Shown one piece after another: positions 37,195-40,001 of a stretch of DNA of 64,000 bases. The stretch spans positions 1 to 64,000 of the forward strand of contig CADASF010000012.1 of assembly GCA_902790465.1 (NCBI GenBank), written 5' to 3'. Both the position numbers and the translations under genes were made by a program. This DNA is from an uncultured bacterium (GTDB lineage: Bacteria; Vulcanimicrobiota; CADAWZ01). Each line of letters starts with the position of its first letter. The first letter of the stretch is position 1. Below the pieces are notes generated by a model, which was not told the DNA's origin, did no database searches, and worked only from the letters and a program-made list of their open reading frames with translations.

Positions 37195-37208
37195 TAGATA
37201 ACATAAAT

Positions 37209-37242
37209 AAAAAAGTGGCATAAAAATTTACACCACTTTTTT
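37209..37242 (-). terminator. Terminator of the prfB operon
   Basis: AAAAAAGTGG and CCACTTTTTT form a ten-pair stem with T-run in both directions; it ends the prfB / Cys-rich / YcxB-like unit. Confidence 0.75.
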
Positions 37243-37248
37243 ATATTT

Positions 37249-37851
37249 TTATTCTTTTTCTTTTTTATCTTCAGAAGATATCGGCAAGACAGATTTTTCA
37301 CCAGGATTAAATCCTGCCTTTAAACAAGAAAGACCATCTAAAAAATTTTCTTTCTGCTCATCTGATAAAAAAAATCTTAACGGAACAACATGTGCTCCCC
37401 TACCCTCTATACCTTTTATATATAAATAATTGTCATCTGTTCTAAAATCTTCCAATTCAGAAGGTTTTATATCTAAATCACCATATACACTTCTAATTTC
37501 AAGACAATTTTTCTTCAAAATATATTGTTTTGTTCCCTCTATCTGAAGCTCTTTTGGTGTTTTATTCATAATTGATTTATCATTAAAACTACCCATTATT
37601 TTATGAAATAATAAAGGAAAAATATTCAAAAGAGCTACGGCAATAACGAACAATACTATATATATATAAAGAGAAGGATTCTTTGATAAATCATCAAAAT
37701 TTGCCAAAAAAAGAATTGCAAAAAATATAAGTATAAAAAATCCCATATTTTTTATATTTTTTAAAACAGAAGATGTGTCAAGACTTACAATATACCTATA
37801 TAATGCAGCCATATCTTCATTTTTTAATTCAACAACAACTTTATTTTCCAT
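37249..37851 (-). CDS. YcxB-like membrane protein
   Basis: 200 residues. Two membrane helices (about 37-55 and 61-83) are followed by a beta-rich domain whose end, VVPLRFFLSDEQKENFLDGL, is the typical finish of YcxB-like proteins, which fold like bacterial PH domains. It is therefore distantly comparable to the array proteins at 25-35 kb but lacks zinc ribbon and signature. The start follows the Cys-rich gene by seven bases, with only a weak ribbon of purines, so translation is probably coupled. Confidence 0.7.
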   Translation of the reverse strand: MENKVVVELKNEDMAALYRYIVSLDTSSVLKNIKNMGFFILIFFAILFLANFDDLSKNPSLYIYIVLFVIAVALLNIFPLLFHKIMGSFNDKSIMNKTPKELQIEGTKQYILKKNCLEIRSVYGDLDIKPSELEDFRTDDNYLYIKGIEGRGAHVVPLRFFLSDEQKENFLDGLSCLKAGFNPGEKSVLPISSEDKKEKE

Positions 37852-37858
37852 TGTGAAA

Positions 37859-38476
37859 TTATTCTGGTAAATCTTTCTTTATTATATAATATACCATCTT
37901 ACCACCACTTGGTGCTTTTCCCAATCTTGCAAATTTAGCGTCACAAATCTGTTCGGCTACCATCATATTTCCATTTTGTTGGCTGTATTTGATTATGACT
38001 TTTGGAAGATTTTCTGGTTTAATCCAATATGGATAGAATTCTGTTGCACCTGTTGCTACTATTTCAATACTATTTCCTTTTTCTGTTGTGATAATATAAT
38101 TTGGACCATCCATTTCAACTTCGCCAACAATTATATAAGCTCTCTTGCCAGCAGGATAAGCTTCTTTATCACATACTCTTTTCATTACACAATAGCAATT
38201 TGCACAACATCTGCATTTACCTTGGCAAGTACATTGATATTCACATTTGCACTTCTTGCAACATTTACATTCTCCCAAGCACATGCATTTATCAGCACAA
38301 TTACATCTGTAACAGCAATTACATTTTCCACCACATTTACAGCTTCTTACACATTTGCATTTATTACAACAACCACAAACAGACTTAAAAACTGTCGAGT
38401 CTGCAAAAACAGGTGCTACAACAGAAAAAGCAAAGAAAGCAACTAATAACGACAAAATTTTTAAATTAATTTTCAT
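37859..38476 (-). CDS. Secreted cysteine-repeat (metallothionein-like) protein
   Basis: 205 residues. A signal peptide (cleavage near FADS, residue 25) precedes a block from C34 to C102 with 27 cysteines. It is built of three 18-residue repeats (46-63, 64-81, 82-99) of the form C-x-C-x-G-x-C-x-C-C-x-x-C-x-C-x-x-x, plus a partial fourth (34-45). Residues about 112-205 form a beta-rich domain (RAYIIVGEVEMDGPNYIITT). Basic residues alternate with the cysteines. Exported cysteine clusters could bind metal, hold an iron-sulphur cluster or form disulphide knots. AAGGAGG precedes the ATG; the gene starts 25 bases after prfB. No known family recognised. Confidence 0.7.
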   Translation of the reverse strand: MKINLKILSLLVAFFAFSVVAPVFADSTVFKSVCGCCNKCKCVRSCKCGGKCNCCYRCNCADKCMCLGECKCCKKCKCEYQCTCQGKCRCCANCYCVMKRVCDKEAYPAGKRAYIIVGEVEMDGPNYIITTEKGNSIEIVATGATEFYPYWIKPENLPKVIIKYSQQNGNMMVAEQICDAKFARLGKAPSGGKMVYYIIKKDLPE

Positions 38477-38501: not shown

Positions 38502-39588
38502 TTATCTTTTTACAAGAAACGCTTTTATAAAACCATCAATTTCGCCATTCATCACGGCTTGAATATTACCTGTTTCAAAACCTGTCAAATGGTCTTTAAC
38601 AAGAGAATAAGGGTGAAAAACATAAGATCTCAACTGACTTCCCCAACCGATATCTTTATGTTCTCCTCTTAACTCATTTAACTTCTTTTCCTTTTCTACT
38701 CTTTCCTTTTCAAAAAGTCTTGATTTTAAAATTTTCATAGCTGTCAATTTATTTGAATGTTGAGAACGTTCATTTTGACATTGAACAATGATACCACTTG
38801 GAATGTGTATCAATCTTACAGCCGAGTCGGTCTTGTTTACATGCTGTCCACCAGCTCCTGAACTTCTATATGTTTCAATCCTCAAATCTTTTGGATCGAT
38901 TTCAATATCAATTTCATCATCATATTGGGGAATAATTTCAATCTGTGCAAAAGAAGTGTGACGACGATGGGCAGAATCAAAAGGAGAAAGCCTTACAAGC
39001 CTGTGTATTCCATTTTCTCCTTTCAAATATCCATAAGCACTATTTCCATTGACCATGACTGTACATGATTTAATGCCAGCCTCTTCACCATAGGAAATAT
39101 CGACAGTTTCTGTTTTAAAAGAGGATTTTTGACACCATCTCAAATACATTCTCAAAAGCATTTCAGCCCAATCTTGGGCATCTGTTCCACCTGCTCCAGA
39201 ATGTACAGATAATATAGCTCCTCCCTTGTCATAAGGACCAGATAAAAGAGACTCTGTTTCTGTCTTTTCAAGAAAAGATAAAATTTTCTCATATTCGGAA
39301 TTTAATTCTTTTAAAGCAGATTCATCACCTTCTTCTGCCATTTCTGAATATACCAAAATATCTTCAAGCCCTCTATCTAGTTCTTGACATGTATTTATAA
39401 CAGTCCTACATTCAGACTGTCTTGCAAAAAGAGGTTGAGCCCTTGCCTGATCATTCCAAATATTGGGATCATTTATCTGTTCTTCTATTTCTTTCAATTC
39501 ATTGAGAATTTTTGGGAGGTCAAAGATACTCCTTTATTTTTGTTATTCTACTTTTCAAATCATCTAAATCAATACTTTGATCCGCCAT
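38502..39588 (-). CDS. prfB: Peptide chain release factor 2, with programmed +1 frameshift
   Basis: RF2 ends translation at UGA and UAA. The first frame starts at ATG 39588 after GGGGG and runs 22 codons to TGA at 39522-39520; the rest (39521-38502) is in the +1 frame. The site reads AAGGAG TAT CTT TGA C, the classic arrangement: an internal Shine-Dalgarno (AGGAG) three bases before CTT and a UGA followed by C. Skipping one base joins KEYL to DLPKIL and gives about 361 residues, normal for RF2. RSSGAGGQHVNKTDSAVRL carries the GGQ motif. The frameshift senses RF2 level, so it autoregulates. First gene of an operon with the Cys-repeat and YcxB-like genes. Confidence 0.95.
39519..39534 (-). promoter_or_regulatory. 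RF2 programmed frameshift site
   Basis: AGGAG-TAT-CTT-TGA-C on the - strand: internal Shine-Dalgarno, slippery CTT and in-frame UGA, as in E. coli prfB. Confidence 0.93.
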
Positions 39589-40001
39589 CAATACCCCCTT
39601 CAGTCAAAAAATGATCGAGTCCCTTGTGAATAAGCACGGAAATCAATTTTTGTTATTAATTTTGCAGTTAAAAAAATTGATTTTCGCATAACTTAACTCG
39701 TTGTGCTAATTATTTTTTTGATATTTAACAGGTAAGAGAGTTTTTACGGTGTAAGTCAGCGAACGATATGTTTTTTTTCCATAGTAGTTTATTGCAATTA
39801 TAACTATAATATGCGGAAAAAAAAGAACTAGTGAGCGACTTATACCTAAAAACTAAGAATAATAATTATGGCACTTTATAAGAAAAATTACTATTTTTAA
39901 CTAGCACAACGAGTTAACTTACTAAATTTCAAGAATGACACATTTTATAATATCACTAAAAAAATTGATTTCCGTATAACTTACTAAATCCCCAAAATTT
40001 G
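39589..40001. other. Intergenic region with a large foldback element between prfB and secA
   Basis: 413 bases without a gene. The element 39636-39975 fills most of it. It must also hold the prfB promoter and the secA terminator, neither of which I could identify. Confidence 0.6.
39636..39975. repeat. Nested inverted-repeat (MITE-like) element, 340 bp
   Basis: Three nested inverted pairs. Outer: ACGGAAATCAATTTTT (39636-39651) and AAAAATTGATTTCCGT (39960-39975), exact. Middle: AACTTAACTCGTTGTGCTAA (from 39690) and TAGCACAACGAGTTAACTT (from 39902). Inner: GGTGTAAGTC (from 39748) followed by TTTTTTTTCC, with GGAAAAAAAA and GACTTATACC (ending near 39848). The left arm continues with GTTATTAATTTTGCAGTT, which also follows the same arm in reverse at 1974-1950. 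No ORF. Confidence 0.7.

Follow-up and report, generated by a model that had tools for sequence, protein, structure and literature searches.

Metallothioneins, among them animal, fungal and mollusc proteins with CxC-x3-CxC spacing and the bacterial SmtA and PmtA, combine very high cysteine and lysine contents and CxC spacing with few hydrophobic residues. Ordinary metallothioneins frequently show CxC-x3-CxC spacing, and their lysine and arginine residues offset the thiolate charge. Bufferins and MNIO-made metallophores are exported and cysteine-rich, some of them with hexapeptide repeats, and chlamydial OmcA and OmcB are exported, cysteine-rich envelope proteins. A literature search on exported bacterial metallothioneins returned mostly reviews, PmtA and the Csps. 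The bacterial metallothionein PmtA is reported at the cell surface (PMC11237414), and Csp1-type copper storage proteins may be located in the periplasm, the gonococcal Csp binding 15 Cu(I) per monomer (PMC12510493).

The window analyzed here, a 64,000-nucleotide stretch of DNA from an uncultured bacterium, encodes a protein with a block of cysteine hexads (Table 1). Its block resembles metallothioneins in being rich in cysteine, in CxC and CC arrangement, and in lysine, and in having few aromatic and hydrophobic residues. In contrast to them, the protein has a signal peptide, strict hexads and an additional domain, is thus a two-domain protein of 205 residues, finds no match among curated metallothionein profiles and would not be located in the cytosol. 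It most likely functions like a metallothionein. With Csp1-type proteins, which store Cu(I) in the periplasm, it shares predicted export and many cysteines; however, Csps are cysteine-lined four-helix bundles, for which the hexads and the cysteine density found here seem unsuited, and no sequence match to the Csp family was detected. An earlier note on this DNA had called an exported metallothionein with regular repeats and an extra domain unusual. Unusual an exported metal-thiol protein is, but there are precedents in PmtA (PMC11237414) and the Csp1-type proteins (PMC12510493).

Reading frame and cysteine hexads

The open reading frame starts with ATG, preceded by a ribosome-binding site containing GGAGG. 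The N-terminus (MKINLKILSLLVAFFAFSVVAPVFA, cleavage before DS) was recognized as a putative signal peptide by eye; in the same manner, N-terminal signal peptides were read in four of four homologues, in agreement with the earlier note, which had placed one ahead of the cysteines. A spurious open reading frame was ruled out by conservation and by silent changes in cysteine codons (see below). We conclude that the frame is a real gene under selection, restricted to one narrow lineage.

Table 1. Positions of the operon genes and of the parts of the cysteine-hexad protein in the window.
Feature	Position	Strand	Remarks
CDS, cysteine-hexad protein	37859..38476	minus	205 aa; ORF listing and conservation
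Ribosome-binding site, AAGGAGGAA	38480..38489	minus	read in the sequence
Putative signal peptide, residues 1-25	38402..38476	minus	signal peptidase I type, APVFA/DS; by eye
Cysteine block, residues 34-102	38171..38377	minus	eleven CxCxxx hexads and RVC; 27 Cys
C-terminal domain, residues 103-205	37862..38170	minus	kept in four genomes; without known family
prfB	38502..39588	minus	first operon gene; +1 frameshift site at about 39520-39533
Two-TM protein	37249..37851	minus	third operon gene; without Pfam family
Terminator-like hairpin	37207..37244	minus	downstream of the operon

The block reads CGCCNK CKCVRS CKCGGK CNCCYR CNCADK CMCLGE CKCCKK CKCEYQ CTCQGK CRCCAN CYCVMK RVC, i.e., eleven C-x-C-x-x-x units without a gap, each third of them being C-x-C-C-x-x, and RVC at the end. 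The count of 27 cysteines in 69 residues given in the earlier note is correct (39%); in addition, the block holds eleven CxC motifs, 3 aromatic residues, 15 Lys+Arg versus 3 Asp+Glu, and few hydrophobic residues. The same note had described a repeat of 18 residues. This signal is real, since the block has 20 Cys-Cys pairs at lag 18, a number that not one of 20,000 shuffles attained, but lag 6 is equally strong (21 pairs; shuffles had a mean of 9.4 and a maximum of 17). The repeat unit is therefore the hexad, and the 18-residue repeat is a super-period of three hexads. At the DNA level, copies are just 58% identical at lag 54 and TRF detected no tandem array in the repeat DNA; thus, we see in it an old repeat rather than the outcome of recent slippage.

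Protein databases were searched for similar sequences. No match to Pfam or NCBIfam, metallothionein profiles included, was found for the window protein at E-values up to 10, the relatives' proteins matched nothing in Pfam, and searches of PHROGs, PDB, plasmids, phages and viral contigs gave no significant match to the window protein. A profile of the C-terminal domain, which comprises 103 residues with one cysteine, retrieved chance matches only from PDB (antibody and ubiquitin chains, E-values of at least 0.39). AF2 was applied with three sequences, leaving out the most distant homologue (G004), and yielded models which are not usable, the C-terminal domain reaching a pLDDT of 42 and the mature protein one of 33; a four-helix bundle is absent from them at these values of 33-42. 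A beta-rich C-terminal domain, as proposed in the earlier note, is plausible from its sequence, the corresponding AF2 model being of low confidence (pLDDT 42).

Relatives, repeat conservation and gene order

A survey of 149 genomes from the phylum found the protein in four, namely the window's own (G000), G001 of the same genus (96% identity), G003 of the same family (62%) and G004 of the same order (38%). The relatives apparently originate from gut samples; one (L006) is a horse feces MAG, and the prefix of another, RUG13696 (L005), presumably refers to rumen. Between G000 and G001, dN is 0.026 and dS 0.64 (dN/dS about 0.04); ten cysteine codons differ, every change being silent, and no cysteine is replaced. 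Between G000 and G003, all 27 cysteines are retained without any indel, while 13 of the 42 spacer residues in the block have changed. In the same-genus and the other-genus relative alike, all 27 cysteines are in frame. Spacer identity (29/42, 69%) exceeds the identity of the C-terminal domain in the same pair (57/103, 55%).

G004 has a longer, rearranged cysteine domain with 38 Cys and 24 Lys; its signal peptide and C-terminal domain are retained, the latter being recognizable alone (35% identity over 108 residues). The final hexads of this cysteine domain, CTCCEN CKCGAK CSC, agree with the window pattern, and 33 of its 37 gaps between neighboring cysteines are even; all 20,000 shuffles gave a lower share. 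Mostly even gaps are expected for residues on one face of a strand, and together with gapless hexads and the super-period of 18 residues they would suit a beta-solenoid in which three hexads form one coil and ladders of cysteines hold metal or disulfides. However, the block offers few hydrophobic residues for a solenoid core, the cysteine spacing is rearranged in G004, no usable AF2 model supports such a fold, and CxC-x3-CxC spacing also occurs in ordinary metallothioneins. We consider a cysteine-lined solenoid quite improbable. Very improbable, too, is its further elaboration, in which turns of 18 residues would stack metal-thiolate centers outside the cytoplasm and form a new metal-storage fold of one gut lineage.

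The genomes of the phylum were also screened for successive CxC hexads at the DNA level. Beyond the homologues, translated matches look low-complexity or out-of-frame, and one match led to a CKGKDG-repeat protein in G026, a member of another family of the phylum. There (contig C278; L062:103-2373), the protein, exported by a twin-arginine-type signal, adjoins an MNIO (DUF692, PF05114) gene and a gene for 278 aa; the locus looks like a bufferin-type metallophore operon. The window protein could itself be a precursor from which post-translational modification makes a copper-binding peptide of this kind, as exported cysteine-rich repeats typify such precursors and G026 provides a real example within the phylum. 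However, its repeat is a different one, it carries the additional domain of 103 residues, and an MNIO gene is present neither beside prfB nor anywhere in G000-G004. Because PF05114 is absent from these genomes, this explanation is largely excluded, and we give it next to no weight.

The gene starts 25 nt past the stop of prfB and ends 7 nt short of the gene for a two-TM protein. The same tight order of the three genes is found in the window, L005 and L006, thus in three species. Its place directly after prfB, a puzzle to the earlier note, is therefore a family-level gene order within a close-packed operon and no chance event of a single genome. In G002, of the same family, about 95 nt separate prfB from the two-TM gene, and this interval contains no cysteine gene; as both neighbors are kept, this suggests that the gene was lost in G002. 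In G004, prfB lies on a separate contig, and about 11 kb separate the cysteine gene from the two-TM gene. Conservation of the two-TM neighbor itself extends through the order, at 31-83% identity. In the neighborhood, Pfam matches were obtained for trpS, prfB, secA, LptF/G and a beta-propeller protein; none of these is a metal gene, and four of the nine scanned neighbors are without any match. A secreted effector or antimicrobial protein, for which the cysteine block would be a stable scaffold, might likewise be secreted, small and restricted to a lineage. It would hardly be expected, however, in a conserved operon with the housekeeping gene prfB and the two-TM gene, nor to evolve as slowly as a dN/dS of about 0.04 indicates, and we regard this explanation as highly improbable.

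Two observations concern prfB and the stretch next to it. The usual RF2 +1 frameshift site of prfB (AGGAG, CTT TGA C) is missed by a mechanical ORF call, which starts too late, at 39497. Between prfB and secA (39660-39990), 'aaaaaaattgatttycgyataactta' is repeated, together with an inverted 'aactcgttgtgc'.

Thiol state and the proposed metal buffer

Since Omp85 and LptF/G were found, an outer membrane is present, and the protein may reside in the periplasm, at the cell surface or beyond the cell. Export would bring the cysteines to where disulfides normally form. In G000-G004, no match was found for DsbA (PF01323), DsbB (PF02600), VKOR (PF07884) or Thioredoxin_4 (PF13462), families which did match in control genomes; three of the five genomes are 97-98% complete. 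DsbA accompanied by DsbB or VKOR, as expected in the host of a disulfide-rich protein, was thus recognized in none of them. Exported thiols are known to be kept in the reduced state by DsbD/CcdA. Among the five genomes, a DsbD-type reductase was detected in G003 and G004 only, and DsbD/CcdA is not recognizable in G000-G002. The lack of a recognizable disulfide pathway and the excess of lysine and arginine, taken together, favor reduced, metal-loaded thiols over an enzymatically formed disulfide fold. On the other hand, G000-G004 may have a disulfide pathway unlike those known.

The protein resembles OmcA and OmcB in being cysteine-rich and, presumably, an exported envelope protein, but differs from them in that no Dsb-type pathway was found in its hosts and that it has no Pfam match. 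A disulfide-linked structural or surface protein, whose hexads would be joined by intra- or intermolecular disulfides and lend stiffness or cross-links to an envelope layer, much like the cysteine-rich outer membrane proteins of chlamydiae, would fit the export, the strict conservation of spacing and spacer residues, and an extra domain which could bind the envelope. Against this, not only was no recognizable pathway found in any of the five genomes, but the cysteine domain of G004 is rearranged and without a fixed pattern, and 27 is an odd number, leaving at least one cysteine unpaired within the block. We therefore regard a disulfide-linked protein as unlikely.

Our main reading, to which we assign a probability of roughly 0.55, is a Sec-exported, metallothionein-like thiol protein which buffers or stores metal in the envelope and whose C-terminal domain is new. 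The signal peptide would take the protein across the inner membrane. The eleven hexads, rich in lysine and arginine, would stay reduced in the gut habitat and form metal-thiolate clusters around soft metal ions, namely Cu(I), Zn(II) or Cd(II). In this way, metal would be buffered or stored in the envelope. A probable role of the C-terminal domain is to anchor the protein or to dock it to a partner, for which the co-transcribed two-TM protein is a candidate. The combination of export, metallothionein-like block and extra domain, already pointed out in the earlier note, is backed by the sequence, by conservation and by the lack of a recognized disulfide-forming pathway. In favor of metal buffering, every cysteine is kept between genera despite the spacer changes, and cysteine content, CxC spacing and Lys/Arg residues beside cysteines are all metallothionein-like. 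Moreover, G004 keeps a cysteine-rich domain though its repeat is rearranged, which is more in keeping with a metal sponge than with a fixed disulfide fold. Arguing against it, neither a metal gene among the family-matched neighbors nor a metallothionein profile match was found, G002 of the same family does without the protein, the spacer identity of 69% between genera exceeds what a loose metal sponge would require as well as the identity of the C-terminal domain, and G000-G002 are those without recognizable DsbD/CcdA.

A host without a recognizable disulfide pathway is a useful case of many exported and possibly reduced thiols. Metallothioneins are generally taken as cytosolic; here, a metallothionein-like protein is, as read from its signal peptide, exported, conserved within a lineage and joined to a second domain of its own. 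If the main reading is true, such a protein would constitute, for bacteria possessing an outer membrane, a further route of metal buffering in the envelope beside Csp1-type proteins and bufferins.
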